A DNA stretch of 64,000 nucleotides from Isoetes taiwanensis (lineage: Eukaryota; Streptophyta; Lycopodiopsida; Isoetales; Isoetaceae). The notes under the pieces were generated by a model that did no database searches, was not told the origin of the DNA, and saw nothing but the letters and a program-made list of their open reading frames with translations. Position numbers and translations under genes: made by a program. The first letter of the stretch is position 1, and every line of letters starts with the position of its first letter. Shown piece by piece: positions 1-52,626 of this stretch. The DNA lies in NCBI GenBank assembly GCA_021234155.1, contig JAJEKV010000023.1, positions 2,532,557 through 2,596,556 on the forward strand. The letters run 5' to 3'.

Positions 1-1179
1 TGGATGTTAGTCTTACATTAAGTTCGAGGGTGAAAGACATTGATCTTGCATTCTATGATAAAACTTGTAATTCTCTGAGGAATAAGCGTTTGGCAGGTTA
101 TGTTAGCCTAGAGCTGGAGCTAGACTATTTATGTTGCCAATTTGTAATTATGATAGTTGCTCAAATACTACCTCTGTGAATAAAATGTCGAAGCAATTCC
201 TTGAATGGGGAACATCAAAACTCATCGGTTATATAACCAAAATTATATGCAAACGCTGCAAGATTCTAAATTACACTGTTTTTAGAGTATGATTGTGTAT
301 TACATGAAGGATATGGGCAAAATATACCATAGGCATGCGTTCCTTAATGTAACTGAGGATGACATGCAACAAGGTAAGTGCTTGTATGCTATGTATGGTG
401 CTGGAAATATAAATTTGAATGGAATTGAATGGGTTTTTATCATCCATGGAGGCTAATAGGCCTATGGGATCCAATCAAAGAGAGCAACAAACTATCAAGA
501 TAGGACAAAAAACCCGCCCTAAAAGGGAATCTGAGGAAAAAACCTTGGCAGTAATAAGCATGCTGATAAACCGTACAATGATATATTAGGATACATTTCA
601 ATGCCGTGCTTGAGGACATAGCTAAGTGTGCATATCCATGATCTCCTGAAGATATAATCCCAGTAACTAGATATAATCTCCTGATGCACTAGGGGTACTC
701 GGCACCGGGTAACCGAGTACAAGGTAGCACTTGATCATGGGCGATGATGGGATCATCTTAAATGGTCCTTAAGCTCAAATCCGAAAGGGCCATGATCGAG
801 TGCAAGGTATTGGTAAGGGGGGTGGTCCCCTAAAACCACAAACTTATTAATTAAACTAACGTAATGTGCTCCTTGTGCAGGAAAGTGAGAAGTGAGCATC
901 GAAATGGGGCGCATTACGAGAAGATGGGGGAACCATAATTTAGATTATGAACCCTAATAACTCTTATAATAATATTTTGAATTATTGTAAGAAGTAACCT
1001 TGTTAAGGCTATAAAATTTTGTATAAGTACAAATATAGCCTAAATTTTGACATTTAACTCTTTAATAGGAAGTTGATCGTTTAAATTGGAGTGTATGTTC
1101 TTCTGTGGTTTTGCAGGATAGAGTGGGCTCGTCACCTTAGCGCAATGCTGAGGACAACATTGTCCTAAGGGGGGGAGAA
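1..1179 (+). mobile_element. 3' noncoding end of a Ty3/gypsy element
   Basis: I see no credible coding region here. The stretch ends in an imperfect AGGACAAcatTGTCCT palindrome and a purine run directly before a TG-starting LTR, which is the usual 3' end of a Ty3/gypsy internal region. Part of it (about 741-775, around GCGATGATGGGATC) resembles the noncoding DNA after the gag-pol at 13170-13210, so it is probably the tail of another copy of the same family, entering from outside the window. Short minus-strand frames look like chance. Confidence 0.6.
1167..1179 (+). promoter_or_regulatory. Polypurine tract
   Basis: A 13-nt purine run (AAGGGGGGGAGAA) sits immediately 5' of the LTR start TGTGATG. 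This is the expected plus-strand priming site and fixes the element upstream as plus-oriented. Confidence 0.75.
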
Positions 1180-2802
1180 TGTGATGTTCCAAGGGAATAT
1201 ACGCTATAAATACGTATATTCCTGGACCCGTCACCATACAAGGCTACCTAGGTAGCCTTGTATGCCTTAGAAAGTGGCAAGGGGTGCACATCTAAGTTAA
1301 TTGTTTAACTTAGATAACCTTAGGATAAGGCCCATTTCCACAGGGCCTTATCCTATTGGGCAACCGCCACACGACGTCGTCCTAGTGGTGCCACGTGGCA
1401 TCCCATGTGGACCCACACCTATATGGGCTCTAACCCTAACCCTAGACCCTTTTCCCCTGACCTAGCACCTGAACTTCGATCTCGTGCGTTCAAAACCCCG
1501 TTTCGAGCATCGCTTAAATCATAGCCTAGCACGGAGCAAAGCCCAAGGAAGGTGTGCATGATCGTTGAGGGAGCAAGCCTTCGACCCACGTCAAGGAGCA
1601 TGGAGACGCCAGGGATGGGAGGAAGCGCTTCTGGAGGAGGTAGGTTGAGTAGAGTTCATATTAGTACATCTGGAAGTTAGCACTCCAGATGGGTTAGTAT
1701 TTCGTATCTAGAGTAGAGCCACCCTAGAACCTTTGTTGAACATCTTGAACCCTAATCAAGGAACCCTAACTGTTAGTTAGATATGTATGATTAGGTTTAG
1801 ATGTTCTTATTATGATTATCATGATATGATGTTATGGGATGTTGGTTGATCATGTTTGCTCCTCTTGTATTGGGAAGGGGGGTAAAGACCTAGGGCCATA
1901 TGTAGTATGCTCCTAGTGTAGATCCCTTAGTTCCTATTAGATGCGGCCTGTGCATAGGAACCCACCGGGCTATGGAAGCTATGATGTGACTCAGCACTAC
2001 ACAACGGGGCTAGAGGCAAGATGGAGGGTGGATCCCTGCCGAGTGGGGGCTACGGGGGATCCCATAGTGGGCTAGGCTTATGGTCGGTCACTTCGTGTGG
2101 GCCGAGCATGGGTCCGACACCTCCTGGGGCAATGGTGTCGCCCTGCCTCTCAAGAGTTGCAAGTGTCAGCTTGACTCTTGTTTTGGGGGGTTCAGTCGGG
2201 TACGAATCGTGTGTCGTCACGATTCTCTAGCCGCCCGTGGAGCCTCTAGACCCCGGGAAGGGGAGATGCACCCCTTCCTACCTCGACGGACCAGGGAGAT
2301 GCAACCTGGAGTAGTCCCGATGGGTGATACCATGGGATTGCGTATCCGGAAGGTTAGAGTCATGCCAGAGCCTGATCTAGCCCATCTGCAAAGTATGCAC
2401 AGGAGGGGCGGATGGAGTGGTCAACCCTAGCCATTGTCTTATGCCAGCCTCGCCATTGTTATGACTCGGTCTGCTCTATCTTGAGGCCTGTCCAGTCAGT
2501 CGTCTTCCTTATATGTCGGAGCCACGGGTAGGAGCTCTCATGTTTTATGGCATATGATTATGTTCTTTGCACCTATGGATATGTGGATGAGCTACCCTTC
2601 GAGGTAGTGTGATGTATTGTTATTGCTAGTTCTGACGATGTTTATGCTTCCGCTGTGATAGGAGCCCATAGGGGAAGGGCGCGCAAGACACCTTCGTGGC
2701 CCCTTCCCGCACTACGGAGATTCCAGAGTGCGGGATAGACGGAGGGCGCGTGCAGTCGGAGGACCGGATGGGGGAGCTGTATATTTAGTAGGGAGCATCA
2801 CA
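1180..2802 (+). repeat. Ty3/gypsy LTR (1623 bp)
   Basis: It starts TGTGATGTTCC and ends GGAGCATCACA, so its ends are imperfect inverted repeats of TG..CA type. A polypurine tract precedes it and a tRNA-iMet primer site follows after one base. It resembles the inverted LTR at 61734-63273: for example, the block around AGGAGGGGCGGATGGAGTGG (about 2402) has a counterpart near 62140-62165. Because internal-type sequence lies on both sides, this LTR is shared by an upstream 3' end and a downstream 5' start. Minor ORFs inside it are not credible genes. Confidence 0.8.
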
Positions 2803-2803
2803 A

Positions 2804-2815
2804 TGGTATCAGAGC
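2804..2815 (+). other. Primer-binding site, tRNA-iMet
   Basis: TGGTATCAGAGC complements the 3' end of plant initiator methionine tRNA. It begins one base after the LTR and marks the start of the internal region of the chromovirus that runs to about 13403. Confidence 0.9.
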
Positions 2816-3363
2816 GATGTTCTTGGTTGACTAGGAACTAGCACTGACCATAACCATGAAAGTAGTCTAACAGGCCTATAGGGGTGTGAAATAAAAATTT
2901 CCCACCATCGAACCTCGAAAATAGGGGAAAAATTTTTCTCCTAGGTAGTGGGTCCGAAATTAGGTTAAGTGTTAGGCGAAGAAATGAATGAGTCAAATTC
3001 ACCTTCTAGTAAATTTCATCTGCATCAAATTTCACCTAAAATGGGTCGAAGAATCATGCCAATCTGAGACCTGAGTGAAAAATGGCGCAAATCCATAATT
3101 AATACTTCAAACTATTAGGAAAGTTGAAAATTTTAAGGTATAATACGAAATTAAGTATGGATACCAATAATTAAATATGTATTAATAATTAGGGTACATT
3201 GGTGTAATTAATAAAGGGGGCTAATAAGTAGGCCTATTTATGGTAGGAGAATATTCCCAGGGACCCTCCTTTTTAAATATCTGCCACCTCATTTCCCTCC
3301 CAAACTCTTTCCTCCACCATATCTCTCTTGCTCAGCCTTACGTCACCCATTTTCTAGACCGTT
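2816..3363 (+). other. Element leader with a possible promoter
   Basis: This is untranslated DNA between the primer-binding site and the H3-like reading frame. It ends in a TATA-like TTTTTAAATATC (about 3270-3281) and a pyrimidine-rich stretch of about 80 nt before the ATG at 3364, which resembles a plant 5' leader. No ORF is credible. Confidence 0.4.
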
Positions 3364-4502
3364 ATGGCACGCACCAAGCAGACAGCTAGGAAGTTTGGGG
3401 AGAGGCCTACACTCTCGATGGCGCACGTAGCAGCAGGTCGCCATGTCAAGAAGATTCCACCACACCTTCGACCCAAGCCAGGTGAAGAGGTGTTCTCCTC
3501 CAGCGACGACACCTTCCACGTCTCTGAGGAGGAGGAGGCGCCTAGCAGCAGCAGCAGCTCTTCGTCGGCGGGCACCCAGCGAACCGACGAGTCCCGCCAT
3601 TTTGGAGCCTCCACTGACATGGAGGTGGAGTAGCAAGAGGGGAACCAAGAGCAGCCCCAACACCAGACTCAGGAGCCGGGCCCTTCTTCGATCAAGAAGA
3701 AGGGCAAGGAGAAGGTCAAGGAGTGGCCGGACAAGAGAGCAGCACGGAAGAAGAGGGAGCGAGAGCGGGAGCTTAGAGAGAAGGAGCGCAGAACAAAGAG
3801 GAGGAACGATCGGCCCCGAGGGATCGTAGTGATCGAGGAGCCTCCCCAGCGCGAGGAGGAAGAGGAAGGAGGAGGAGGAGACGGTGAAGAAGAAGCGGAG
3901 GAGGAAGACAACGAAGTCGTCGGGGAATCTTAAAATCCCGACGCAAGACCACCTTACCCTAAGTGGCCCAAGCCACCCAAGGTGGTCAAGAAGCGTATAA
4001 GGGCGAAATGGCATCGTCATTTTGGCGAGAGGAGCGCCTTTAAGACGCCGCCAAAGCGCATTCAGGAATACCTCCGCCGCTGGACGATGTATAACGACCG
4101 GTACCGCCGCAAAATGCCCAAATGCAGACGCGGAGGGCTGGGCCGACCCAAAGAAGAACCAGCCCAAGCCGCCGCCGCCACGACCGGAGAAGCCCAAGAA
4201 GGTCCATCACGGACCAAATTCCAGGCATGCCCGAGTTTTTCGGGAGATTAAGCACTTTCAACAGTGCACTAATCTCCTGATTAGGAAGGCACCATTTGAG
4301 CGGCTCATGCGAAAGATGATGCGGGGGCTTCACACCGACATGAGGTGACGCCGCCACGACAAGGGTGTTGCAGGTAGCTGCGGAGGCCGAGCTCACCCAA
4401 TTGTTCGAGGAAGGAAACCTCTGCGCGATCCACGCAAACAGGGTAACGGTGATGCCCAAGGATCTACACTTGGCGCGCCGTATCCGCAAGGAATACCCTT
4501 GA
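3364..4502 (+). pseudogene. Histone H3-like pseudogene with a long internal insertion
   Basis: The first ten codons read MARTKQTARK, identical to the canonical H3 start and including the K4 and K9 positions. A region like the VKKPHRxRPG part of H3 follows (HVKKIPPHLRPKPGE). The H3 fold reappears near the 3' end: FREIKHFQQCTNLLIRKAPF at about 4238-4297 for alpha-N/alpha-1, then [20 protein letters not shown] and LARRIRK at 4402-4490 for alpha-2/alpha-3. Between tail and fold lie about 240 extra codons: a Ser/Glu-rich part, a Lys/Arg-Glu part with nuclear-signal-like clusters, then an Arg-rich part. Canonical H3 has 136 residues; this spans about 379 codons. The copy is broken: TAG at 3631-3633, TAA at 3931-3933, a change to frame 2 between about 4100 and 4200, TGA at 4346-4348, and a change to frame 3 near 4346. 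No GT..AG intron of plausible size explains these. It lies between the primer-binding site and gag of a chromovirus. Confidence 0.85.
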
Positions 4503-4711
4503 GGATACAATTTTGTATAAATTAATGTAATTGATAAATTTTCTCCTATAAATATAAAATTTTGTTTGTAAATTGACTTTGATTTTTGCATGAAGATGTG
4601 CTTAAGTAGTTCAAATTCTAGTTTAGTTTTGGCCATCATAATTGAAATGTTCAAATAGATTAAATTAGTAAAATACCCTAATTAAATTAATTAAAATTCT
4701 GAGCAAAAATC

Positions 4712-4991
4712 TGAAATCGGGTTGCACCGCGCAAACCCTGTCTGCGCTCGCCACGCAGAGCTCATTTTCGCGGAGCAACCCGGTTTCGCCATTTTGACCC
4801 CAAAACATGTCCAATTTGCTCGAGAAAAGTTCCTAGTTAGATTAGAATCATCCAAGTAGTTATATTAGCATCTCTAATTTTCCTGAAATCTTCAGTAGAA
4901 CCCAAAAATACCCGAAATCGGGTTGCACCGCGCAAACCCTGTCTGCGCTCGCCACGCAGAGCTCATTTTCGCGGAGCAACCCGGTTTCGCC
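4712..4991 (+). repeat. Two copies of a 79-nt stem-loop
   Basis: Copies at 4712-4789 and 4913-4991 are essentially identical and spaced 201 nt apart. Each can fold: GGGTTGCACCGCG near the 5' side pairs with CGCGGAGCAACCC near the 3' side with one mismatch, extended by CGAAATC/GGTTTCG. An inner stem CTGCG..CGCAG is also possible. Confidence 0.75.
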
Positions 4992-5163
4992 TATTTTTGC
5001 CCAATTTAACCAATTTTTATCCAACAAACTGCCATGTAGTGTTTCTTGCTTTGTTTTGCTTAGAATTGCACTTCATGGTAGCTCATTTGGACACCCATAG
5101 CCATGGAACAAAAGTCTTCTCCATCAAGAACCCTTGTGCACGGAACCCGAGGCATCCCTAGTC

Positions 5164-5170
5164 TATAAAA
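5164..5170 (+). promoter_or_regulatory. TATA box before the unknown ORF
   Basis: TATAAAA followed by a G run lies 112 nt before the ATG at 5282, with a C/T-rich leader between. This suggests the downstream ORF has or had its own promoter separate from the LTR. Confidence 0.5.
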
Positions 5171-5281
5171 GGGGGCCTCATTTGTCATTTTCTCCCCATC
5201 AAAACTGCTCTCAGCACTTCAGGCGATTTTCCAGCTCTCTACTCATCTTCACAAGCCATTTTTCATAGCTATCTCTGCTCA

Positions 5282-7900
5282 ATGGCGCCATCAAGCTTTG
5301 TTAGATGGTACAATGAGGCCAATCACATCCGTGAATTCCCTGCCGAGCAAGCCTTCCACGTCTTTGATCATCTCTTTGATCTCCATGCCACTCTGACTAG
5401 AACTCCCTATTACACCGACATCATTTGCCAATATGACCAGCAGATTCTACCTTGGGAAGTTAGTTTGCCACCTAGGGAAGGGAAATGGGTTTCCTTAGAC
5501 TCTCTTACCCAAGCCATAGGTGGGGGATCAAAGGGCAAGAATAGGTTGTGGGATAGAACCAGAAATATGCCAGATTACATGACCTGTAAGCATCATAGGC
5601 ATAGATACCTCTCAGCCCATGCAGCCTTAGCTTTGTTCATGCAGTACAAGGCAGTCAACCAACAACCTTTGGATTTGGCACCTCTCGACACTCCGAGGGC
5701 GCAGATAGACATCCACGAGATCCAGGCTACGGAGTACGAATACTACGGCTCCACATCAGGCACACCTATGTTGCAGATTGAGCAGGATTATGAAGAGCAA
5801 GAGGAAGAGAACCCAAGTTGGGAAATGAGGGAGGCAAGAAGGATGGAGAGGCGTCTAGCCCGGCAACAGGAGGTACTAAGGCGAGACTTCGAACTGCCAA
5901 TTGGTATCACGGCTCTGACTCCAGTGATTATCGACGGCGAGGAGTACAAAGCACATGACAGTGAATACCTCTAAGTCAAAGATTATGACTTTTGGAACCA
6001 GAGACAGACCGTCATTTGCATGCCAGGGGCAAGAGCTAGAAACAGTAGAAAGATATAAATACCTTGGCCTTGTTTTTTCTTCCAAATATAGCTGGAAGGA
6101 ATGCATCAGCAGTAGAGCAACTGGCGGAAAAGCGGCCTTGTACAGCATGCTTTCCAAGTGTTCCAAAACAGCCTTACATGATTGGGGGCTTAAGAGAATT
6201 TTATTTAAGTCTTTGGTGCAGACAGTAGTCCTGTACGGCACGCCTGTGTGGGGTCCAAACTTATCTCAGAAGTTGTGGAACCAAATCGAGCAAGTTCAAA
6301 AAGTGTTCATCCGCCATGAATTGGGTATCAAATATCAGACTCCATATGCTATCATGCTCGCTGAGACCGGCCTATTTCCGTTGGAGCTGGAGGCCTTATA
6401 TCAAACTGTTAACTTTGTAAACAGAGTCATGGAGTAGCCACAAGACAGGCTGTCGCATCTTGCGCTACTACACTCAGGCCAAGAAGGCTGGTACAGCGAT
6501 GTGTTGAATTGGGCAAGCAAATGGGGATTGACGATGGAAAATTGGCCAGATAACAAAGTGGATGCTCGCTCCCTCTTGGAACGATTAGCAATGGACCGCC
6601 TTTGGGCCTCTCAAGGCAGCAAGATACAACATTATGTGCAACATGTCAATCCAGCAGCTGATCATAGGAGAAAAGGGTACCTCAATGCAAATATCCCTAG
6701 GTATTTGAAAAAACTAATGGCAAGATATAGGACCAGCTCACACAAGCTTGAGCTAGAGACTGGCAGATGGTATAAGATACCAGCCCCGGAGAGAATTTGC
6801 AGACTCTGTAGAAGACGAGGACCACGTATTTACTGCGTGCCATGCATATGTGGATGTTCGGGAAAAGTTCAACATTCGGGCACATGATTTTTGTTCCTTA
6901 TTTGCAGCACCATACCCATCATACATAGACATAGGATTATACATCAAGGCGGTGGACACCCACCGTTCTTTTCTCTTGAAACTGTAAACAGTTTGTATAC
7001 AGGCTCCATGGCCTCTTCAAGGCCCCAGGAGAGCAAGTTAATTTATTTATTTATTTATTTATATTCGCCACCGACATCCTCAACCTTCCCTATTGTCAAG
7101 AAGAAGGTCTCAGGATCGATGAGCTCCTAAGCCTAGTTGCACAAGAACAGGGCAGCGACTTCATCGACTATGATTACCAAGAAATTCCAAGGGAAGTAGC
7201 CGAGCGACATTCCTACACCGGGGAAACTATGTCAGACATTCAAGCTTACCAACAGATAAGGCAGATGTACCAGCAGCAGCAACCCATCATTCCAGAAGAG
7301 GAATTCCAGGAGATCCAAAGCAGGTTGTATAAGCTGGGAAGAGGCCCAAGCTCCAGTAGACCAGTGCGCTCCAGGAGTATGCGCGAAGCTTCTAGCAGCA
7401 TCAACTTGGAGAATGCAACCACGATGTGGAGAGATCACGAAGATCTTATGGCATTAGATGTTTTCGGCGAAGCAGCTCAAAGGAGAGGCACGGGAACCTC
7501 GGGCCCAAGCAAGGGTAAAGCACTCAGGTACTATCTTCTGGTCCTTAGCCAAGGGCAGATGATAGTTTTCCACAAGGAGTTCAGCCCAAGGGGGGAAGAG
7601 TCTGAGGCGCTCCTCATAGCACTCTCAGGCTTTGGGCAACATGCCAGAATAGAGCATTGGGTAGACCATGTTATCCTCTTCAAGAGATCCGTAGTCCTTC
7701 ATTCTCTCGACTTCGCAAGGGGCCACCTCAGGGACGCACACTTGTCAGTAGTGGCGGCAACTGCACCAGAACTTCCGGCACCACAGATGGCAAGAGCATT
7801 GGAAGGAGGATCGGCGGCAAGAATCCTGCAGAACGTCGGCAAGGGGATAGGATTGAAGAATGTCAAGAACTTCTTCAAGTCTATGAGGGGACATCGTTGA
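5282..7900 (+). pseudogene. Unrecognised ORF upstream of gag, split by a LINE
   Basis: The 5' part (5282 to about 5950) begins MAPSSFVRWYNEANHIREFP and is rich in Glu, Gln and Tyr toward its end. The 3' part is open from about 7064 (FATDILNLPYCQEEG...) to the stop at 7900, in the same reading frame number, and is interrupted only by a LINE. The 3' part holds a Gln/Glu-rich stretch, a Ser/Arg patch (SSSRPVRSRSMREASSS), a hydrophobic segment (LRYYLLVLSQGQMIVFH) and a basic C-terminus (GLKNVKNFFKSMRGHR). I do not recognise the family. The position between primer-binding site and gag resembles the extra 5' ORF of some large plant Ty3 elements, but no homology is claimed. Together the two parts give about 500 codons. 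Confidence 0.55.
5950..7063 (+). mobile_element. 5'-truncated LINE insertion
   Basis: The insert encodes the region after the LINE reverse-transcriptase core: VNTSKSKIMTFG, ERYKYLGLVFSS, LYGTPVWGPNLS, VQKVFIRHELGIKYQTP, then a Cys/His cluster (CRLC, later HVFTACHAY). Frames change near 6435 (stop) and 6806, so it is inactive. It ends in a (TTTA)n-like tail at 7038-7062. The left edge is placed where the interrupted ORF stops making sense and is uncertain by about 10 nt. No target duplication was found by eye. It resembles the LINE fragment at 29804-30235. Confidence 0.8.
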
Positions 7901-8228
7901 TGGAAAGCTTGCTTTGTAAATTAATTAAAGTGTATTGAAAACCCTCTCTTCAGTTATTATCATGTAATTCATGAAATGTATTTCTATATACTAATTAATG
8001 TCTTACTATGATCTTGACTTGGAAGTGGAATTTTCACATAATTTCTTTTGTACCTAACAACAATTCAATTGTAAGCAAGAATGATTAGTGTGTAACTTAA
8101 ATAACAAGCATTGATGATTAATCCTTGCAGCAAGGAACACCGGCTCAGGTTCTCAAGGCCAAGGCCGACATCACCAGTGGATACCCAGAAACCTATTCGG
8201 ACGTGATCAAGATGACAACAACGAGGAA
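7901..8228 (+). other. Spacer before gag
   Basis: AT-rich noncoding DNA between the unknown ORF and gag. At about 8131-8225 a frame reads like coding sequence (GTPAQVLKAKADITSGYPET) and may be an eroded extension of either neighbour. Confidence 0.35.
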
Positions 8229-10194
8229 ATGACGGTGGAATCAATCAACGCAAGGCTCGTCCAGATGAGGAATCAGATGCATCAGCTAATCCACTGGACC
8301 ACCCCATTGATGAATGCCCTAGGAATATGCACCTGCACCACCGCCACCTCCACCACTACCTCAGCAAGGCATCGAGGAAGGTCCACAGCCGGAGGGGCAA
8401 GACAATCAGGGAAATGTCAGAGACAGGAAGAGGAAAAGGAGAAACAGAAGGACTCCAACACCACCTAGCTCCAGTTCATCAGACACTTCAGACAGCCAAG
8501 ACAGTTCTAGCTCAGAAGGTGAGTCCGATACTTCACAGGTAAGAGCCAGGGCAAGGAAGGCAGATGACTATCAAAAGAAAGTTGACAGTGCTATGAGCAA
8601 TGTGTGGAAGACTAGGAAGTTGTTCTCAGGGAAGGACAGGTCAGGTATGGAGGCAGAAGCCTGTCTTGACGAGATGGAGGAATTTGGCAACTCTTATGGC
8701 ATGAAGGACAAGGATATAGGGAAGGTTGCTACAGCAAACTTGATAGGAGCAGCTAGAATCTGGTGGAAAGGCTACGCAAAGTCCAACAAGCTCAAAAGGA
8801 ACAGTTGCAGATTCAAGACCTTCAACAAGGCCTTTCGCAGACATTATGTGCCTAGATCACATACTAGCAGGCAGATCCAGCAATTCTACAGATTGAACCA
8901 GGGTACCTTGTCAGTAGTAAAGTACACAGAGGAATTCATGCGACTCAGGCTCCATGTCCCCGGAGTTTCGGAAAGGCAAGCGGTTGAAACTTACATTGAG
9001 GGATTCAACAGCAATATCAAAAGGCTAGTCCGAGCAATCAACCCAAAATCAGTGGCAGAAGCCGAGGATAAAGCCATAAGTTTGGAAGAAGCTCCACCAA
9101 CGCCAGGGGAGAAACAGTCGGCCTTCAAAGGAAAGTCAACAGGGCAGTACCAGAGTAAGCAATCAGCAGCTACGCCATCAGGAGGCCAGCAGCAAGGAAA
9201 AGCACAGGGTAAGAACTTTGAGGATCGTAAGCCGCAGAATGCATCAGGGGGTAGTGCCCTAAAGCGTCTTTTAGACAGTCTGCCGAAGGAGAAGAGACAG
9301 GAGTGTATCGAGAAGAAGCTATGTTTCAGGTGCTTCCAGCCAGGGCACCGAACACATGATTGCCCATTCGTCATGCAGGCAGCTTTGGCAGAGCTTGGGG
9401 ATTGGGATTCACCAACAGAAGCAGATGAAGACGACGACCAGCATGAGGCCCAGGACTTCATAGATGGTGAGTGCCATATCTGTGCAAATATTGAGTCAGG
9501 TGATATTGAAAATCAGTCGACAGTCATTGCGGCTGATGGAATCATAGATAGCAACCCATATGTAGTCCTCATAGACACAGGTAGCTCTCACAACTTTGCC
9601 TCTCCTAGGCTGGCTGCCCTAATGAAGAACAAGGTATTGAAGTCTAAGCCAAGGCCAGTTGCTATGGCAAACGGCGCCATTCGGCACACTAAGGGGAGGA
9701 GGATCACATTCGACATAGACCTTAGTGGAAGTAAGTGGCCGATGGGGGCAGAGGTCATGGAAATTGGAAGGTATGACCTTATAGTAGGAATGGAGTTCCT
9801 AAAACCAGCGAAAGCCATGATCGACTGCGACCGTAATGAGATCGCCATGACAGCACCGGACGGCACCAAATTCATAGTGAAAGGTAAGAAGGCAGCTTCT
9901 TCTATGCAGTGTATTTCTTTGAAGCAGCTAAAGAAAAGTATAGAAAGAAATAAGGTGGATTATATTTTGAGGTTAGAGGCAATTGAGCCCAATAAGCAGG
10001 ATGGAAGCGACCAAAAGGGGAATCAGTTGCCCAAGCCAGTAGCAAGGCTCATTTCGGAATTCAAGGATGTATTCCCAGATGAAATCCGGCAGCTACCACC
10101 TTATAGGGGTGTGGAGTGTGAGATCACATTAGCTCCAGATGCTAAGCCTACCAGCAAGGCGCCTTATAGGATTGAGCACCCCGGAGTTGATTGA
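8229..10194 (+). pseudogene. gag: Chromovirus gag and aspartic protease
   Basis: Gag likely begins at the ATG at 8229 (MTVESINARLVQMRNQMHQL). It changes frame near 8330 and continues through a Pro-rich and Ser/Asp-rich stretch into the long frame from 8593. That frame holds the retrotransposon gag domain (ATANLIGAARIWWKGYA, FNKAFRRHYVP, YTEEFMRLRLHVPG, about residues 30-160), a CCHC zinc knuckle (CFRCFQPGHRTHDC, about residue 237) and the protease active site LIDTGSSHNFAS (about residue 326). The protein would package element RNA and process the polyprotein. The frame ends at 10194 because a single-base indel near 10170 separates it from reverse transcriptase. Confidence 0.85.
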
Positions 10195-12947
10195 GCTCAA
10201 GAAGCAGCTCCAGGAATTGCTTGAGCTTGGTTTTATTAGAGCAAGTGTGTCTCTTTTTGGAGCACCTATACTCTTCGTGAAGAAGAAAGATGGGAGCTTA
10301 AGAATGTGCATAGACTATCGCCAGCTCAACAAGCAGACGATAAAGAATAAGTATGCATTGCCAAGGGCAGATGATTTAATGACCAGCTCCAAGGAGCAAA
10401 GGTATTCTCTAAAATTGATTTGAGGTCAGGGTACCACCAGATAAGAATAAAAGAAAAGAGGATATCCATAAGACCGCCTTTAGAACGCGGTATGGTCACT
10501 TTGAGTTTACAGTAATGCCCTTTGGGTTGTCGAATGCTCCAGCAACTTTCATGCGCCTCATGAACGACGTCTTCAGGGAATTCCTAGATGAGTTTGTCAT
10601 TGTCTTCTTCGACGACATTCTAGTCTACAGCAAGTCCATTGAAGATCATGGTCAGCATTTGAGAAGGGTGTTGGAAAAGTTGAGGCGGCATCGCCTGTAT
10701 GGAAAGCTCTTCAAATGCCACTTTGCTACCGAAAGAGTGGAGTATTTGGGCCATGTCATATCGGCGGAAGGGATCTCCACCGACCCCGCAAAGATTGAAG
10801 TAGTAGTGGATTGGCCAGCACCAAAGAATGTGGCGGAGGTAAGAAGCTTTCTAGGTCTGGCAGGTTATTACAGGAAGTTCGTGAAAGACTTCGCTAAGTG
10901 GGCGTCCCCTTTAACGGACCTCACTAAGAGTGTTAAGGTGAAAGATTGGAGAACACATTGGCTAGAAAATGTTCAAGCTTCATTTGAAAAGCTTAAGGAA
11001 GCCGTAACAACAGCACCAGTGCTAGTTCTGCCAGATCCAGACAAGGACAAGATAGTAGCAACAGATGCAAGCAAGATAGCAACAGGTAGAGTCCTTATGC
11101 AAGAAGGAAGAGTAGTGGCCTATAATTCCAAGAAGTTGAACGACACCGAGCAGCGCTATCCAACCCATGATCATGAACTTCTAGCTATTGTGAGAGCTCT
11201 TCGTATTTGGAGGCATTATTTGCTTGGGAGGAAGTTTCAGTTAGATACTGATCACCAGAGCCTCCAATACATCTTTACCCAACCGCTCCTCAATCTGAGG
11301 CAAAGGAGGTGGATGGAATTCCTAGAAGAGTATGATTTTGAGATTGCTTATAAGCCAGGTAAGTTGAATGTGGTTGATGATGCTCTTTCTAGAAGACCCC
11401 TTGAGACGAGAACACATTGTAATGCTATATCAACTCTTTCGAGTGGGTATGGCAAGAAAATTGAGGAGACATTACCATTTGATGGTGATTTCAAGGAGGT
11501 ATGGGAAAGCCTCTCTAAGGAGGCTAGAACAGATAAAGAACGAGAAGCCTTCAAGCATTATAGGAAGGAAGGCAACTTGTTGTACCATAAGCATAAGTTG
11601 TGTGTACCCGAATCGTCAGGTGTAAGGAAGTTAATTCTTCATGACACACACAACAGCCCAATAGCAGGGCATGCAGGTTTTATGAAGACCTACTTCAAGA
11701 TTCGAAGTAGTTATTTCTGGTCGGGAATGAAGAAGCAGATAGCAAGATATATTCGGGAGTGCCAGTTGTGCCAGCAAACCAAAGCGGAGCAGCTTCGAAT
11801 TCCAGGAGCCTTGGAACCTCTAGCAGTGCCGAATGCGAAATGGGAAGTGGTAAGCATGGATTTTATCACAGGACTTCCCAAAACTCTTCGAGGCAAGGAT
11901 GCATTAATGGTCGTAGTAGACAAATTATCTAAGATGGCACATTTTGTGCCTTGTAAGACTACGGACACAGCATTAGATACCGCCAAGTTATTTGTAAAGG
12001 AGATTTTTAGGCTCCATGGCATGCCTCGGGAAATAATTTCGGACAGAGATTCTAAGTTTATGAGTGCTTTTTGGCAGGACCTCTTTAGCACCATTCAGAC
12101 GAAGCTCTCCATGAGCACAGCTTATCATCCGCAGACAGATGGTCAGACGGAGCGCACGAATCGAATTATTGAAGACATGCTTAGAAGTTATGTGTGGAAT
12201 AAGCAGTCCAAGTGGGATGAGTACATCCACTTGGTGGAATTCGCCTACAACAGTGCCAAGCAGGAGTCATCTCAGATGTCTCCTTTCATGGTAAATTACG
12301 GGTACCAGTGCCTAACCGCGGACACCTGGCACAATCCTGTGTCAAAGGTTGAAGTATCCCAGCAGATGCTAGGTGATATGCAGCAGCTGGTGGAAGAAGT
12401 AAGGGGATACCTTCTAGCAGCAAGAAGTCGGCAGAAGAGTGTGGCCGATCGGCACAGGACCGTAAGGGAGTTCAAGGTAGGCGATAGCGTGTGGTTGAAG
12501 ATCAAGGTAAAGCAAGATAAGCTTCGGATTGGGAGTTGCAAGAAGCTTGCCCCTCGATGGGCTGGTCCGTTCAAGATTTTGGAGAGAGTGGGCTCCCAAG
12601 TCTACAAGTTGGATCTTCCGGCCCATCTCAAAGTTCACAAGGTCTTCCATGTAAGTTTATTGAAAAAGCACAATCCTAACCCTGAGGAGGTCTTGGATAC
12701 TCCAACCTTGTTGGAAATGACGGAGGAGCAAGTCGAAATTGTGCCTGAATTACTTCTTGATAAGTCATTCAAGAAGACTAGGAGGTCTCAGTTCCTCCAG
12801 TATTTGGTCAAATGGAAGCACTTGCCCGTGGAAGACGCGACATGGGTGTTGAAACAGGATTTGGAGAAGCAATACCCAGAGTTTATGAAAGAGTTTGATG
12901 GGCAAGTCGTCTCCGACTTGGTCGACCCCGACTTGCCAGGAGGTTAG
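10139..12947 (+). pseudogene. pol: Chromovirus reverse transcriptase, RNase H, integrase
   Basis: Fingers-palm sequence starts near 10180 ([15 protein letters not shown]). Small indels near 10380 and 10455 break the frame before the long run at 10515-12947. That run holds the RT active site FFDDILVYS, RNase H ([37 protein letters not shown]), an integrase zinc-binding region ([19 protein letters not shown]), the integrase core ([37 protein letters not shown]), a GPY/F-type module ([20 protein letters not shown]) and a chromodomain. All pol domains except the broken RT start are well preserved, so the copy is fairly young but cannot make an intact Pol. Confidence 0.9.
12723..12900 (+). other. 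Chromodomain at the integrase C-terminus
   Basis: The segment [10 protein letters not shown]...[18 protein letters not shown]...YPEFMKEF fits the chromodomain fold and places the element among chromoviruses. Of the three aromatic cage residues of HP1, only the central Trp of VKWK is kept; the first aligns with Ile and the third with Leu. This matches the group II chromodomains known from plant Reina/Tekay/Galadriel-type elements, so methyl-lysine binding is uncertain. Confidence 0.7.
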
Positions 12948-13070
12948 CTTAGTATGCTTCTTAGCTAGCCTTAAGTTCTGGCTCATGTCTTCTAGTTAGT
13001 AGAGCACATGCGCCTTTAAGGCATTCTCTAGGCCAACATGCACCAAGAGGTGCGCATGACCATTAGGGTC

Positions 13071-13105
<35 letters not shown>

Positions 13106-13403
13106 CGGATGCTCCCTATGCCACGATGCGGGGTTCGCACACCTGGCCATAGGGGGGGTCATGGTGAAGGTCAAAGTGACCATGCGCGATGATGGGATCG
13201 TGAGACGTTCCCTAGCTTAACCTTTTTCGTATGTATACGAGGAGTCATGGGGTTTTTGGATGTTGTTCTAGTTATAAAATCATACGGAAAGGGATCAAAT
13301 ATTCCTATTATGAACCTGTATACTAGGGTTTTTTGGCAACCCTATACATGCAGGTGGCATGTCCCGTATAAAGAAGATGTATCCCCTGGGGGGGGAGGGG
13401 TCT
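12948..13403 (+). other. 3' noncoding tail of the chromovirus, ending at a purine tract
   Basis: This noncoding stretch contains a (GA)n microsatellite at 13074-13102. The segment at 13176-13210 resembles 745-775, supporting the same family. It ends in CTGGGGGGGGAGGGG (13386-13400), a likely polypurine tract, but the next bases (TCTAGTC) are not the LTR start seen at 1180. The 3' LTR is therefore absent. Confidence 0.6.
13074..13102 (+). repeat. (GA)n microsatellite
   Basis: About 14 uninterrupted GA units in the noncoding tail of the chromovirus. Confidence 0.95.
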
Positions 13404-14220
13404 AGTCATAAAGCTTTGCTTTGTACTTGTTGTTCCGCATTGCATACAGTGCCTTCTAACCAGCTGTCACACAAAATCGGATGGAAAAGTCCCAGTTTTT
13501 GGTGGTAGAAGACTCCACTTCCAAACACTTGTAGGGATCACGGTCCAAGAGATAGAACATTCTCTCTAATGTTTCGCAATGTACATCGCTTTCTTCCCCT
13601 TGAGAAAAATGTGGTACTGTCTAATCACAGGTAGGTGCAAGGTGGGGGCCTGTTGAAGCCAGTATTTAAGCTCTTGACATTCATCATCAAACCACTATTT
13701 ACGAGGAAAAATTGTCGCCCCCGAGGGCCTCTGTGGATGACTTCTTTCCAAAGCATCTATCGGCAGTAATCATAAGCATATGGACCAACTGGGCAGTCTG
13801 TTGCTGTAGTGTGGAAAGATACAGAATTTCTGCTAGGACGATTGTGACCATTTGGGCATAAGCCTCTGCTTGGCTATAATCCAAGTATAGCTGAGGTAGG
13901 CGAGGGGTTGGAGCACTAGAGATCCGAACAGTCTCCCAATCCACCTTGAATAGAATTAGTTGGCAGTCGAAATCCACTTCTTTATCTCTGCTATTTATGC
14001 CAACGAGAATATGAGTGGCCAGATGCAGATTCTACTCTGTTACTAGCATGTAATCTACGACACTAGAACTGCCTCATTCGTTCTTCTGCACATGTAGATG
14101 ACCAGGTCAAAGATGATGCACATTTGAAGTAACTGTCTGCCAAAGCGCATGACTGGGTAGGCTCTGTCATATGATGCTCGTGGTTAAGCAGCCTTTGTAG
14201 AGCAGAGTTTGACACGTCCT
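13404..14220 (-). pseudogene. LINE endonuclease-linker remnant, part 2
   Basis: Minus-strand sequence continuing from 19317-20100 across the copia insertion. Readable pieces include VDFDCQLILFKVDWETVRIS and CFGKKSSTEALGG, as expected for the poorly conserved stretch after a LINE endonuclease. It has many stops and is not functional. Confidence 0.45.
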
Positions 14221-14225: not shown

Positions 14226-14784
14226 TGTTGCAAATATGTAATGTCAGTATATTCATGCTTAAAGGAAAGATCTTCAGCATATTCATATCTTAGAGGAAGA
14301 TCTAAAAGGGTAGTCTTAACCCTAATGGTTAAATATCATTGAGGCCTTAATCATATAGAAATATGACCTTATTTTAGTCGGTTATGTTTCATAAGGATAA
14401 GGTGTTGCAAAAATTAGAATGAATAGTGCTGGACCAATGAGATAATTTCATTGCTGAATCGAGGAGACGGTCATGGCTTGACCGACTGCTACAGCTCCGG
14501 AAGACTTCCATATAACCAGGTTGAATGTGATGAATTAAGAGAGCTGGTGTGATCCGTTTCAGTGATCACGGTCGTATGATCGTTTGCAGTGTCGTTATTC
14601 CTTCCATAAGGCAAATGATGGTTGAGATATAGTCTATAGATAATTGCTCCTATGTCTTCAAGTTTAAATGGTTTCAATGGTTTAAATTGAAGCATAAGAC
14701 TATAGAGATAGAAGTTAAGTTGGTTGCCTAGTTCATTCCTTAACAAGTGATTTTTCATTAAATATTGATCAATATTTTCTAACA
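14226..14784 (+). repeat. Copia 5' LTR (559 bp)
   Basis: TGTTGCAAATATG ... TTTTCTAACA. It matches the 3' LTR (18753-19311) over equal length with about eight mismatches by eye, so insertion was fairly recent. Confidence 0.95.
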
Positions 14785-14785
14785 G

Positions 14786-14797
14786 TGGTATCAGAGC
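14786..14797 (+). other. Copia primer-binding site, tRNA-iMet
   Basis: TGGTATCAGAGC one base after the LTR end. Confidence 0.9.
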
Positions 14798-14801
14798 TTT
14801 G

Positions 14802-16451
14802 ATGGCAACCAGACTTGAGCCTTCATTACTAAATGGAGTGGATATGTTTCAAGGGGAAGCAGGTTTCCAGACCTGAAAAGAAAGGATGAAGGATGTTCTG
14901 CAAGTTGAAGATCTCTGGGATCTAATTGCAGGATATGAAGAAGGAGAGAGTAGTCACTCAGGAGAAAGTGAAGCTAGTAAAGGCTCTATTAATGCTGGTA
15001 CTAGTGCAAATGCCTCAAGACGTGCACAGCAGGCCAGGTGTATCATCTCAAGTAAGTTGAGTTCAAGCATTATGTTTAAACTAAAAAACAAAACACCAAA
15101 GGAGATGTGGGAATATTTAGTCAAACACTATGAAGTTAAGAATTCCTCTCAGATTGAGATGCTAGATAGGGAGCTAAGAAGATTCAAGTTCAAAGATGAG
15201 GATAATCTCACACAATTCTTCCAAAGATATGACAATATTGTAACTGACCTTGAGGCCGCAGGAGTTCCTATAACAAAAGATTTTCATGTACTGTCTCTCT
15301 CTAGAGCATTTTCAGAATATGAACAACTGTCCACATTAGTGAGAAGTGTGGGTAGAAATCGAGAGAAGGCAGAACTTATGATAAGAACAGAAATAGAGCA
15401 AAGAAAAATTATAAAAGGAGAGGAAGAAGAAAGTTCTGAGATACTCTATGCAGGAAAAGGGAGAGGGAAATTTGGAAAGGCAGGGGGTGACAAAAATAAA
15501 TTGGGGCCATGTTACCATTGCAAAGGTATGGGGCACCTTAAAAATAATTGTCCTAAGTTGAAGGAAAACAGGCGCTTTAATTGTGAAGGGATTGGACATG
15601 TAGCTGCAGAATGTCCAAGTCCTAAAGGTATTGGAAAGGGAAGAAATAAAAATTATTACTCTACCTCAGAAAGAAAAGGCAACTTCTCAAAGGGAAAAAA
15701 GGAAGGAAATTCCAGCATCAACCTCACACAAGAAACAAACAATGATGAGGAAGATCCTGATGCAGAGGTAAGTATGAAAGCTATTTGTTCTATCTCAGAA
15801 AATTCAGCTAATAAGGCTAATGATATGCTTATTATAGATAGTGGAGCTGAGAGATCAGTAGTTAGAACTACTGATGCTCTCAAGGAGAAAAAGAAAAGAA
15901 GGGGAACTTCCGTGCAAATGGGAGATGGCAAATTTCAAGAAGTGAACGAATCAGGGATGCTTGCACTTTATGATTTGGAAGGCAATCTAGTAAACTTGCA
16001 TGATGTACTTGCTGTTCTAAAAATAATGAGGAACTTGATTTCTGTCAGCCAACTAGTAGACATGGATTTTATACTTGTCTTTGACAAGAAATGTTGTAAA
16101 GTGTTTAAAGATAATAAAATCAAGTTTCTTGCAAAAAGAGTTGGAAATCTTTTTGGATTCTATAATAGAAATTTGTTTGGAAGCTTAAATTCTGTTCATA
16201 TGCCCACTTTGAAGTTGTGGCATGAGAGATTAGGGCATGTTAACATGAATAGCATCAGAGAAATGGCAAAAAGGGGACTCATAATTGCTGCAGAAGGAGA
16301 TGAATCAGTATGTTATGGATGCATGATTGGCAAAAGTTCAAGGTTACCATTTCCAAGGAGACAAGGACGAGCAAGTGATTTGTTGGAATTAATTCACACA
16401 GACCTCTGTGGCCCCATAAATGTGAAAAGTTTGCAAGGCATCCTCTTTTGA
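14802..16451 (+). pseudogene. Copia gag, protease and integrase N-terminus
   Basis: The expected start is the ATG at 14802 (MATRLEPSLLNGVDMFQ), but an in-frame TGA at 14874 interrupts it; the frame reopens at 14886. Features in order: gag (TPKEMWEYLVKHYE, LDRELRRFKF), a CCHC knuckle CYHCKGMGHLKNNC, a second knuckle lacking its first Cys, the protease motif IIDSGAERSVV, the pre-integrase domain (LWHERLGHVNMNSIREMA, CYGCMIGKSSRLPF), and the first integrase Asp in HTDLCGP. The frame ends shortly after that Asp, at 16451. Confidence 0.9.
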
Positions 16452-16534
16452 AATTTATTTATCATTTTATTTAGAAAGCTCGTAGTCTAGTTGGTTGGTA
16501 TCTTCGGTTGTTGTCTTAATCAAAAATAAGGTAT
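16452..16534 (+). other. Filler at the integrase deletion
   Basis: About 90 bp replaces the roughly 190 codons that normally separate the first integrase Asp from the FGC/HIPKEKRKKLD-like block. It includes GCTCGTAGTCTAGTTGGTTGG, which is loosely like a tRNA A-box region, so it may be filler copied from elsewhere during end joining. Confidence 0.5.
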
Positions 16535-18714
16535 GAATCTTTTCGAGTATTTGGTAGTGCTGCTTTCTTGCATATTCAAAAAGAAGAAAGAAAAAAATTG
16601 GATGATCGAGCAATTAGATGTTTCATGGTAGGTTATGATGAACAGTCTAAAGATTATAGACTATATATTCCTGAAAGAAGAAAAATTGTTGTTGGAAGAG
16701 ATGTTAGGTTCAATGAGATGATACTTTATAAGGATAGAAAAGAAATAGAGACAATAGGGCAGATTTGTTTATTGAAAATGTTCAAGGAGAGACTAGCTAC
16801 TCACAGCAGGATATTGATGATGATGAAAAGGAAGAAACAAATACAAAACAAGATGAAGAAATTACAAATGAAGAGGATAAGGGCGAACGTACACATGCTG
16901 AAGTGGAGAACAAAGAGGTTCAACAGGGCAGAAAAATCAGAAAAACAGAAGTTGAGAAACTAATGGAAGGGAATAAGAATATAGACTATGATGATTTTGG
17001 AAGGACAATTACTGGTACATCAAAAAGACTCCAAAGGAATGATATAGAAATAAATGAAATTATGGCAATACTTGAACCAAGTATACCACAGAGTTATGAA
17101 GAAGCTATGACTAGTGAGAATGCAAATGAGTGGAAGATAGCTATGGACAAGGAGATGGAATCTTTTGACAGAACAGAAACTTATGAAGTTGTTGAAAAAC
17201 CAGAATACAAAAATATAGTTGGAAATAAATGGATTTATAAAATAAAAATTGACAATGATGGCAAAAGGAAATTCAAGGCCAGATTGGTAGCTCAAGGTTT
17301 TTCACCAAAAAAAGGGATTGATTATGAGGAAACATTTTCTCCAATAATTAAGTTGACTAGTTTGAGAATACTTCTTGCATATGCAAATGCTTTGGACCTT
17401 GAAATCCATCACATGGATGTGAACGCTGCTTTCTTAAATGCTAAACTTGATGAAGAGATATTTATGCAGCAAGCAAAGGGTTTTGAACAAACGGGGAATG
17501 TAGTATGGAAGCTTAAACGAGCTGTTTATGGGCTCAAACAGTCACCAAGGCAATGGTATTTATGCATGGATAACTTCTTGAAGGAGCAAGGATTTGTTAA
17601 ACTTCAAAATGAAGGTAATTTGTATGTTTACAAGGAGAAGGTAAATTTCTGCTTTATTGCCTTGTATGTTGATGACTGCATAATGGTTGCAAACAATTTG
17701 GAATGCTTAAACTTTTGCAAAACAGTGCTAAATGGCAGATTTCAAATGACAGACCTAGGGTTGTTGCAAAAATTTCTTGGTATTGAAGTGCACAGGAATC
17801 GAGAGCAAAGAAGAATAACTTTGACACAAAGATATAACATACAAGGTATGTTGGAAAAATTTGGAATGGTTAACTGCAAAGGTGTAAAAACTCCACTAGC
17901 AACAGGCCAGAAATTAAGGTGTGATTCAAGTCCTAAATCTGAAGATGAGATGGCACAAATGGATAAATATCCATATAGAGAATTGGTGGGATGTCTTTTG
18001 TATATAGCCAACTGTAGTAGACCAGATATAGCATACAGTGTTAACCTACTTAGTAGGTTTGGAAACAATTATGGAAAACAGCATTGGCTTGCTGCCAAAA
18101 GGGTATTAAGGTTTTTAAAGGGAACTTGCAATGAAGGTTTAACCTTCACAAATACAAATTTGGAATTAACTGCATATTCAGATGCGGATTGGGGTGGAGA
18201 TTTGGACACAAGAGAATCTACCTCTGGATATATCTTGCAGATTGGTGGAAGCACAGTGTCTTGGAGAAGCAAAAAACAAGGTTGCATAGCCATGTCCACT
18301 GCTGAAGCTGAATATAATGCAGCCTCATTAGCCAGTAGAGAAGTTGTTTGGGTTAGAAGATTGTTGAGTGAAATAGGAGCAGTTCAAGATAAGCCTACCA
18401 CATTGTTTATTGATAATGTTAGTTGTATAGCCATAGCTAAAAATCCTATGCTACACGAAAGAACAAAGCATATTGAGCTTCAAGTACATTTTATCAGAGA
18501 CATGATTGCAAAGGGAATTATTACTGTGGAATACAAAAATACAGAAGACCAAACTGCAGACATTTTTACTAAAGTATTACCAGCATACAGGTTCTTGAAG
18601 TTACAGGTGAATATTGGAATTAATGGTACAAAATCAGATGGAGTAAGTGCAGTAAAAGACAAGGAAGCAGAAAAATACAATCACAAGTCTGTACAGTTTG
18701 GTATAACAGCGTAA
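16535..18714 (+). pseudogene. Copia integrase C-terminus, reverse transcriptase, RNase H
   Basis: It resumes with FRVFGSAAFLHIQKEERKKL and YDEQSKDYRLYIPERRKIVV (post-core integrase), then changes frame near 16765. The second frame holds reverse transcriptase (WIYKIKIDNDGKRKFKARLV, MDVNAAFLNAKLDEEIFMQ, YGLKQSPRQW, active site YVDDCIMV) and RNase H (AYSDADWGGDLDTRESTSGY, STAEAEYNAA, KHIELQVHFIRD, DIFTKVLP). RT-RH is open to 18714 and looks intact at the residue level. Confidence 0.9.
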
Positions 18715-18742
18715 GTTCATATCAGAATATGAATATGTGACA

Positions 18743-18752
18743 TTAAGGGGAA
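18743..18752 (+). promoter_or_regulatory. Copia polypurine tract
   Basis: The purine-rich TTAAGGGGAA directly precedes the 3' LTR. Confidence 0.75.
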
Positions 18753-19311
18753 TGTTGCAAATATGTAATGTCAGCATATTCATGCTTAAAGGGAAGATCT
18801 TCAGCATATTCATATCTTAGAGGACGATCTAAAAGGGTAGTCTTAACCCTAATGGTTAAATATCATTGAGGCCTTAATCATATAGAAATATGACCTTATT
18901 TTAGTCGGTTATGTTTCATAAGGATAAGGTGTTGCAAAAATTAGAATGAATAGTGCTGGACCAATGAGATAATTCCATTGCTGAATCGAGGAGATGGTCA
19001 TGGCTTGACCGACTGCTACAGCTCCGGAAGACTTCCATATAACCAGGTTGAATGTGATGAATTAAGAGAGCTGGTGTGATCCGTTTCAGTGATCACAGTC
19101 GTATGATCGTTTGCAGTGTCGTTATTCCTTCCATAAGGCAAATGATGGTCGAGATATAGTCTATAGATAATTGCTCCTATGTCTTCAAGTTTAAATGGTT
19201 TCAATGGTTTAAATTGAAGCATAAGACTATAGAGATAGAAGTTAAGTTGGTTGCCTAGTTCATTCCTTAACAAGTGATTTTTCATTAAATCTTGATCAAT
19301 ATTTTCTAACA
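18753..19311 (+). repeat. Copia 3' LTR (559 bp)
   Basis: Same length and ends as 14226-14784, followed by CTACC, the right-hand target duplication (19312-19316). Confidence 0.95.
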
Positions 19312-45177: not shown

Positions 45178-46157
45178 TCACAAAAATTTAGAAAATGTTT
45201 GAAATCATAAGTAATCTTAGGGCAAATAAGATAGTGTGTATATAAATGGAAAGCGTCGGCAAAGATGTATGGTTTTAAATACATTGCCACATGGGGTGCA
45301 CAGACTTGTGGTCAAAGAAGAAAAAAAATTATAATAAAAAATATGTAGGTATCTTAATCTTAGGCTAGGCCACACATTTTCTGACCCCAATAATGCAGCC
45401 AGGCATTTCCACAGCCGTCCGATTAAAAGCTCTGGACGCTCCCGATTTGAGGACGACCTTTTAGACGTGGCTCATAACTAGCTCTCAGAAAAAGAAGATA
45501 ACAACCACCAAGCAACCAATTAAAATACAGACACGTAGAAAAGAAGATTCGGCACGTTAGATTTACAGCCTAGCGAAGGTCAGCCGTCCGTGACACGTGT
45601 GAATGCTAAGCATAACCGCGCTTTATTGCAGGAGATTTCCACTAGCAGTTAGCCCTATATCTCATAACAACGGACGGTCCAGGTTGATGCACGAAACCGA
45701 CGGCTCGGATTGCAAAGAGAATCGAATCCCCAACGTTGGCTGCACGTATGAAACGTCGTATCAAACTTTCAATGGTTAGGATGTAGAGTAGGCATTCGAA
45801 GGCACGATCTGGACCGTGCAGTGCACGAGTAAGGGTCTATAGTGGAGACAGGGGACGCAGAATGGGAGAGCAATCTTGCCTTCCTTCTGCTATGACAGGC
45901 TATTCCGGCATCGCCATAGCCAATAGCTTTCTTACACGGACACCCAAGAGCTCGGATTTATAATCTTACTCCACATTTTAAACCAAAGCTCGATGTTTTT
46001 GGCAAAACCCAAATCGAAAAATGCGAGGCCTATGTCGAAGAATCGGCGACGGACTTGATGTCGATTAGCCCTAGCTTTGTTGAAGCATCAAGACCAGGGA
46101 GCCGATTTGGTCTTCCCAGCTCTGGTATGCTGGAGTAAACGAAGAAATCGATCAAAC
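45178..46157 (+). promoter_or_regulatory. Promoter and 5' leader of the RNA-binding gene
   Basis: Contains a G-box CACGTG (45594-45599) and a possible TATA (TTTATAAT, 45957-45964). If transcription starts about 30 nt later, the leader holds short upstream ORFs at 45993-46058 and 46021-46068, both ending before the main ATG. No other gene is seen. Confidence 0.45.
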
Positions 46158-52100: not shown

Positions 52101-52626
52101 TCAAAATGAAGAGATTTTTGATAATATGCGACTCAAACCACATTTCCATTCCCGTATGGAAGATTTTTATAGAGAGGAGATAAATGACAGGGGAGATGAT
52201 GACACACGAAGTATAAGAGATGCTTCTTTAGAACGAAAGGGAAGCCAGAATGGAAATGATGACTATTTGGGAAATGAAGTTTATGATGGATTTGGTCGCT
52301 CTTCAGCTCATAGAGCTGTTGCTGCAACTGGATTCAAGGAGGTGGATAGAAGGAGATCTGTGTATGTGGATCGAATACCAGAAAAACTGCCTGAACCTGC
52401 AGTAAGAGAGATAATTGAGAAGGTTTTTCGTCGTAAATATCGTAACTGCAGTACTCATCCTGTATCTCAGGTGACATTCTTTCGAGATAAATTTGATCCT
52501 AATAAGCTTTGTGCCTTCGTTGAAGTAAAAAATGAAGATGTTGTGCAGGATCTGCTGGACTGTTATGCCTCAGATGAAGATGCTTTTGCAGGGATGCGTC
52601 TGAGGCCAGCCTTCAAGTATAGCTGA
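46158..52626 (+). CDS. Multi-domain nuclear RNA-binding protein (KH plus four RRM-like)
   Basis: Inferred exons 46158-47293, 47445-47544, 48040-49738, 49812-49880 and 50180-52626 join in frame to 1816 codons; every junction has GT..AG and matching phase. The start is the first in-frame ATG after the leader (MFDLNEEP). Domains: DLNEEP, an EAR-type (DLNxxP) repression motif at residues 3-8; a possible SPOC-like domain at about 333-465 (CWKGQIRL ... LTPGASSSDAKAFSSMV ... GDLYLAPLS); an RE/RD/RS-rich region at about 630-755; a KH-like motif near 1066-1090 (IKGEDGKNLERIQDCTG, GxxG loop GEDG); then four RRM-like repeats at about 1254-1350, 1419-1507, 1572-1660 and 1728-1813, with RNP2/RNP1-like pairs ILYVSNLP/CAFVEFA, LFVTELM/CVFVDLA, VYADRLP/CAFIVFV and VYVDRIP/CAFVEVK. 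The RRMs resemble U2AF65-type. A nuclear role in splicing or co-transcriptional repression is inferred. No damage is visible. The SPOC call is weak. Confidence 0.85.

Follow-up and report, generated by a model that had tools for sequence, protein, structure and literature searches.

A histone H3-like gene maintained in a family of chromodomain retrotransposons of the lycophyte Isoetes taiwanensis

Why should a chromodomain retrotransposon carry a gene resembling histone H3 ahead of its gag gene? The question arises from one element in the window, by which we mean the whole 64,000-nucleotide stretch analyzed here (Isoetes taiwanensis, contig JAJEKV010000023.1, positions 2,532,557 to 2,596,556 of the forward strand). 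The first-pass annotation, made from the sequence alone, had placed such a gene at 3364..4502, with an exact H3 N terminus, a C-terminal H3 fold, two stops, and two frame changes; all of this, coordinates included, is borne out by translation and by tblastn with an open homologue, L027. The frame from 3364 opens MARTKQTARKFGERP. At 3364..3393 (+) the gene encodes methionine plus H3 tail residues 1 to 9 (ARTKQTARK), and next comes the phenylalanine that had been noted in place of serine at H3 position 10. An acidic/basic linker, a middle segment, and the H3 fold complete this broken gene, which we call ORF1. Its in-frame stops are at 3631-3633 (TAG) and 3931-3933 (TAA), and the fold (4202..4499, +) is split over two frames: part 1 (about 4202-4345) is read in the next frame and part 2 (about 4347-4499) in the third, up to a stop at 4500-4502. 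The corresponding tblastn pieces, 4202-4345 and 4356-4499, match L027 at 85% and 94%, respectively. Between ORF1 and gag lie a further ORF (ORF2) and two hairpins.

The element itself belongs, in decayed form, to a family of Ty3/gypsy chromoviruses here designated F1; Pfam finds the Ty3-type order of gag, protease, reverse transcriptase (RT), RNase H, integrase, and C-terminal chromodomain in the window, and the class is assigned from this domain order together with the LTRs, primer site, and target duplications described below. All of its parts lie on the plus strand. The similarity of many copies begins at position 1180, the first base of a long terminal repeat (LTR; TGTGATG...CATCACA, 1180..2802) that is matched at full length in copies such as L017, L023, L026, and L027. 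The LTR end is adjoined by the primer-binding site TGGTATCAGAGC (2804..2815), an exact match that an exact search found identical in 9 of 20 fetched copies and that we take to be of the initiator Met type. The gag and protease frame (8323..10194; PF03732, PF19259, and PF08284) is followed by the frame for RT, RNase H, integrase, and chromodomain (10419..12947; PF00078, PF17917, PF00665, and PF00385), with the chromodomain at about 12744-12899. ORF1 thus lies between primer site and gag, where the first-pass annotation had put it.

No second LTR of this copy was found within the window. The copy is circularly permuted over 682-13220, with the internal 3′ end (682-1179) first, then one LTR, then the remainder; the sequences at its two ends are 12 to 16 nt apart in L017, L025, L027, and L020. 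This order suggests that a one-LTR circle was integrated or that the copy is what is left of a tandem array. Just downstream, at 14226-19052, is a copia-type LTR retrotransposon (300-bp repeats, 98% identical; copia gag domains), and long ORFs at 46059-52626, one of them with an RRM match (PF00076, 1.8e-09), appear to belong to a host gene.

Chance cannot account for the resemblance of the F1 protein to H3. The open homologue L027 (378 aa) matches Pfam PF00125 at 1.5e-27, and its fold aligns with H3 chains of the PDB across 87 residues without a gap (about 3e-28). In layout, the F1 protein begins with the H3 tail start, continues through the acidic/basic linker, which includes a conserved middle segment, and ends with a fold of canonical H3 type. 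Of the 16 copies in which this stretch was aligned, the window included, 10 have methionine plus H3 residues 1 to 9 without any change; the tail stretch aligned partly in one more copy and not at all in four. Compared with host H3, 55 of 87 fold sites are alike in L027. In a set of functional sites compared with the host (H3-H3′ interface, H4-facing, N-helix, and loops 1 and 2), F1 has the host residue at 11 of the 12 sites of the H3-H3′ interface, at all 5 of loop 2, and at 15 of 24 H4-facing, 3 of 6 N-helix, and 2 of 4 loop 1 sites. K56 is Gln in 18 of the 19 F1 copies used. Because 9 of 24 H4-facing, 3 of 6 N-helix, and 2 of 4 loop 1 sites have changed, entry into nucleosomes is not assured; a nucleosome containing the protein could be weaker or differently tuned. 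Contexts of K27 and K36 are not evident in the F1 protein.

Capture of a centromere-type H3 (CENH3) that directs the element to centromeres would accord with the long noncanonical N-terminal parts of some cenH3s (available text of PMC9145170) and with the targeting of centromeres by some chromoviruses, as listed in the literature available. The F1 fold, however, is ungapped against canonical H3, the best 60 of 176 PDB matches are named H3 rather than CENP-A, and the F1 tail start is canonical; we therefore disfavor a centromere variant as scarcely credible.

We searched for other copies, as the first-pass annotation had proposed, in the genome assembly that holds the window (1,658,258,908 bases in 1110 contigs). 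With the window's fold DNA as query, all 40 scored places matched at 87 to 100% identity (the best 40 of 1202 candidates); with the 378-aa protein of one open copy, all 109 scored places matched at 77 to 100% (the best 109 of 16608), the candidate numbers being first-look candidates, not copy counts. Among these best 109 protein places, 87 span residues 1 to 378, 74 are stop-free, and 60 are both, an open fraction that is biased upward because only the best-scoring places are included. We fetched 20 of the 39 other fold-DNA places, up to 10 kb each, with 4.5-kb extensions for some. Two proved to be complete elements of about 13.1 kb: L017 and L027 have LTRs (about 1.62 to 1.65 kb), primer site, H3-like ORF1 (broken in L017, open in L027), ORF2, gag-pol, polypurine tract, and LTR, and are flanked by 5-bp target duplications, ATTCT and GCCTG, respectively. 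Since complete elements with target duplications carry the gene, H3-bearing elements moved as units. Divergence between LTRs (K80) is 0.035 in L017 and 0.013 in L027; for a 960-base part of the L025 LTRs it is 0.017. An F1 H3 place lies within 12 kb upstream of at least 28 of the best 135 gag places (at least 31 when fold-DNA places are added), and in 25 of the 28 pairs, formed from places among the matches listed for both, the spacing is 3986 to 4123 bp.

Some F1 copies lie close together. L026 and L028 (G000:C930) form a head-to-tail pair separated by about 10 kb, and the sequence preceding the L026 LTR matches the F1 internal 3′ end. In L023, a second, inverted LTR-leader-ORF1 start (1798-4250, the reverse of 5751-8203 of the oriented copy) lies less than 10 kb from the first and matches window 1180-3578 at 93%. 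Scanning viral_contigs with the F1 protein found no relative, and BLAST against plasmid sequences gave no match.

The first-pass annotation had also proposed a test for selection below neutrality, and this is what the F1 copies exhibit. The pN/pS ratio of the H3 fold is 0.15 (105 pairs among the 15 copies, of 21, whose fold is clean; codon bootstrap, 0.08 to 0.24), against 1.11 and 1.97 in the wrong frames; it is 0.20 over all 21 copies, with 190 of 210 pairs meeting the length limit, and 0.24 with a looser set of 13 copies. The rest of ORF1 gives 0.23 for residues 1-40 (10 copies), 0.27 for linker residues 41-190 (6 copies), and 0.15 for middle residues 190-284 (8 copies), against 1.3 to 2.1 in wrong frames, with copies for these three regions hand-picked as less broken. 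In all of these comparisons pairs are nonindependent, and similarity to the window fold was the basis for choosing copies. In the same elements pN/pS is 0.23 for ORF2 (15 copies), 0.30 for gag-protease, and 0.19 for RT-integrase. Selection on ORF2 being similar, H3 is not specially constrained, but about as constrained as the other genes.

These data bear on the simplest explanations. Many copies that inserted separately have the gene at this one position, so the outcome in which no other family member carries the H3 segment did not materialize, and recurrence, complete elements, and selection together rule out a single late retrocopy that landed in one element. Could it still be a passenger, a captured host gene without function? 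There is precedent in Pseudocercospora fijiensis, in which all hAT-borne H3 copies except the original gene are inactivated (available text of PMC6710886). However, pN/pS is low in the coding frame and in neither of the others; together with the 74 stop-free places among 109 scored (best 109 of 16608) and the existence of a second architecture, described below, this makes a functionless passenger extremely unlikely.

ORF2, also on the plus strand, encodes a protein without a Pfam family and is under purifying selection over 15 copies. In the window its first part (5282..5948) and second part (7061..7900, open to the stop) are split by an insertion (5949..7060, +) that is LINE-like by inspection and absent, with flanks joined, from 16 of 20 fetched copies; in L027 the two parts are continuous and ORF2 is 507 aa. 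Pfam matched no family in the window ORF2 pieces and nothing in insertion part 5928-6434, and AlphaFold of the two ORF2 halves as single sequences gave no confident model (mean pLDDT, 47.0 and 35.7). Upstream of ORF2, hairpin 1 (4712..4788, +; z, −6.46) is repeated as hairpin 2 (4913..4989, +; z, −6.56; repeat D2). The repeats are 201 bp apart and some copies have only one; the hairpin is present in 19 of 20 fetched copies (missing in L016). Across 24 sequences, pairing in hairpin 1 is kept through changes on both sides at 5 of 19 pairs, and several pairs are broken. Rfam found no family in window 1000-14200; the hairpins are possibly a translation or RNA-processing signal.

The position of the H3-like gene, directly before ORF2 and gag in complete elements, and the basic and acidic blocks of the F1 linker would suit a packaging factor, a protein that coats or chaperones element RNA or cDNA in particles or at nuclear entry rather than acting in host chromatin. 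Yet conservation of 11 of the 12 H3-H3′ interface sites compared points to a tetramer partnered with H4, and we consider a packaging role quite unlikely.

A second architecture, F2, emerged when the genome was queried with plant H3. The best 150 of 9022 candidates comprise 15 host-like genes (96 to 98%) and 135 places at 71 to 86%; many of the latter lie in open frames of 400 to 500 aa, and 6 of the 135 have a stop by hand count. At the one F2 locus read (L049 and L050), a 409-aa ORF encodes a 245-aa N-domain, in which Pfam found no significant match, followed by an H3 fold that matches PF00125 at 1.3e-40 and is like host H3 at 73 of 87 sites. As in F1, the ORF at this locus is preceded by an LTR-type end, GGGAGCGTCACA, and by primer site TGGTATCAGAGC. 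We infer the element class of F2 from these features, since what was read of the locus covers LTR-type end, primer site, and ORF. The N-domain is itself repeated: all 150 scored places match at 73 to 100% (the best 150 of 4028 candidates), 123 of them stop-free and 27 with a stop (hand count), and at least 45 of these best 150 are closely followed by one of the 135 H3 places. On the minus strand of L032 (9-453), beyond the L025 element, a piece is about 49% identical to N-domain residues 97-208, and so further F2 relatives exist. A viral_contigs scan with the N-domain found no relative, and BLASTP of F1 ORF2 against the F2 protein gave a best E value of 5.0.

F1 and F2 share Y54F, I124L, and A135P relative to host H3. 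BLASTP aligns F1 162-378 with F2 215-409 (38%), covering the fold and the residues leading up to it, and leaves the N-terminal parts without a match, which suggests that the fold is their likely common function. In the fold tree that the first-pass annotation had called for, F1 (8 of 21 copies) and F2 group together at a support of 43/24, as would fit either one capture or two, and human CENP-A is a long, unsure branch. What does stand, almost beyond doubt, is that F1 elements regularly carry the H3-like gene and that selection maintains it, and that two proteins with unrelated N-terminal parts share a C-terminal H3 fold.

What, then, might the fold do? A free H3-like protein could act as a decoy or competitor, absorbing H3-tail writers and readers or chaperones and so weakening silencing outside nucleosomes. 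Such a decoy would fit the preservation of K4 and K9 within an unchanged run of H3 residues 1 to 9, seen in 10 of the 16 F1 copies aligned there, and the pN/pS of 0.23 for residues 1-40. Against it, constraint on the F1 fold equals or exceeds that on the tail, F1 shows no evident K27 or K36 context, and the F2 protein, of which one was read, has no ARTKQ tail, yet its fold is closer to host H3. A tail-only decoy does not explain F2, and we judge a decoy unlikely, if still worth considering.

The chromodomain offers another use for the tail. In the window chromodomain, aligned by eye with HP1, the tryptophan cage site is present and the other two cage sites are not aromatic. It therefore lacks the three-aromatic cage of H3K9me-binding (type I) chromodomains. 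One element codes for both a chromodomain and an H3 tail, and the MAGGY chromodomain binds H3K9me2/3 (available text of PMC3350952); an F1 chromodomain might similarly bind the K9 tail of element-made H3 and steer integration to chromatin holding that H3. The absence of two of three cage aromatics, as in type II chromodomains (available text of PMC6317226), and the lack of an H3 tail of that kind in the F2 protein read make such self-recognition very unlikely.

Our best explanation of the whole, held tentatively, is that F1 and F2 carry element H3 genes whose products act as chromatin anchors. The H3 fold of both would pair with host H4, and the paired fold would enter nucleosomes or H3-H4 complexes; incorporation of element-made H3 with H4 is what we infer from the fold. 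There it may tether to chromatin the N-terminal parts peculiar to each element. The chromatin concerned could be that of the element's cDNA and fresh insertions or that close to sites of integration, and the tethered parts might change silencing or insertion. More speculatively, the acidic linker of F1 could be a built-in chaperone. A broader version is possible but more doubtful: lycophyte retrotransposons may have made H3 a replication gene, with F1 and F2 as branches of one or repeated captures in a broad clade whose H3 fusions enter host chromatin and control silencing or integration. If the proteins do enter chromatin, the idea that selfish elements fight silencing with nucleosome parts of their own becomes directly testable, and the parasite would be rewriting the nucleosome itself.

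Searches of titles and the beginnings of abstracts in largely open-access journal literature found no retroelement-borne histone, and the word "histone" is absent from the main texts of the two Isoetes genome papers (including PMC8566536). F1 shares LTRs, primer site, gag, protease, RT, RNase H, integrase, and chromodomain with plant chromoviruses but, unlike them, has the H3-like ORF1 and ORF2 before gag. In the available text of the survey by Neumann et al. (PMC6317226), "histone" occurs once, for the chromodomain, and there is no mention of an additional or extra ORF, an ORF1, or one upstream of gag. The Culex Helentron also has histone sequence inside a mobile element, but as broken H4 and H1/H5-type fragments in a rolling-circle element (available text of PMC4067079).

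Among viruses, bracovirus H4, the single H3s of giant DNA viruses, and nudivirus Orf1 are likewise parasite encoded, some with long or altered tails, and six viral H3s have been judged likely to form nucleosomes; their carriers, however, are DNA viruses rather than retroelements, and the available text of the review in question (PMC9145170) never mentions "retrotransposon" or "retrovir". The closest likeness may be sought in fungal hAT transposons with H3 (P. tritici-repentis, Pseudocercospora, Cercospora, and Sphaerulina), which likewise are mobile elements multiplying an H3-like gene; in Pyrenophora tritici-repentis, 23 of 26 copies of the hAT-borne H3L appear coding capable and ESTs exist (available text of PMC6710886 and PMC3538342). 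F1 elements differ from these in being LTR retrotransposons (Pfam scans of their ORFs found no hAT domain, and LTRs are present instead), in having the H3 fold as the C-terminal part of proteins of 378 to 409 aa in two architectures, counting F2, and in the low pN/pS of H3 between copies. Histone capture is already known from DNA viruses and fungal DNA transposons; no retroelement encoding a histone was found in the papers searched, and in F1 and F2 mobile elements code for a core chromatin protein in a version of their own.
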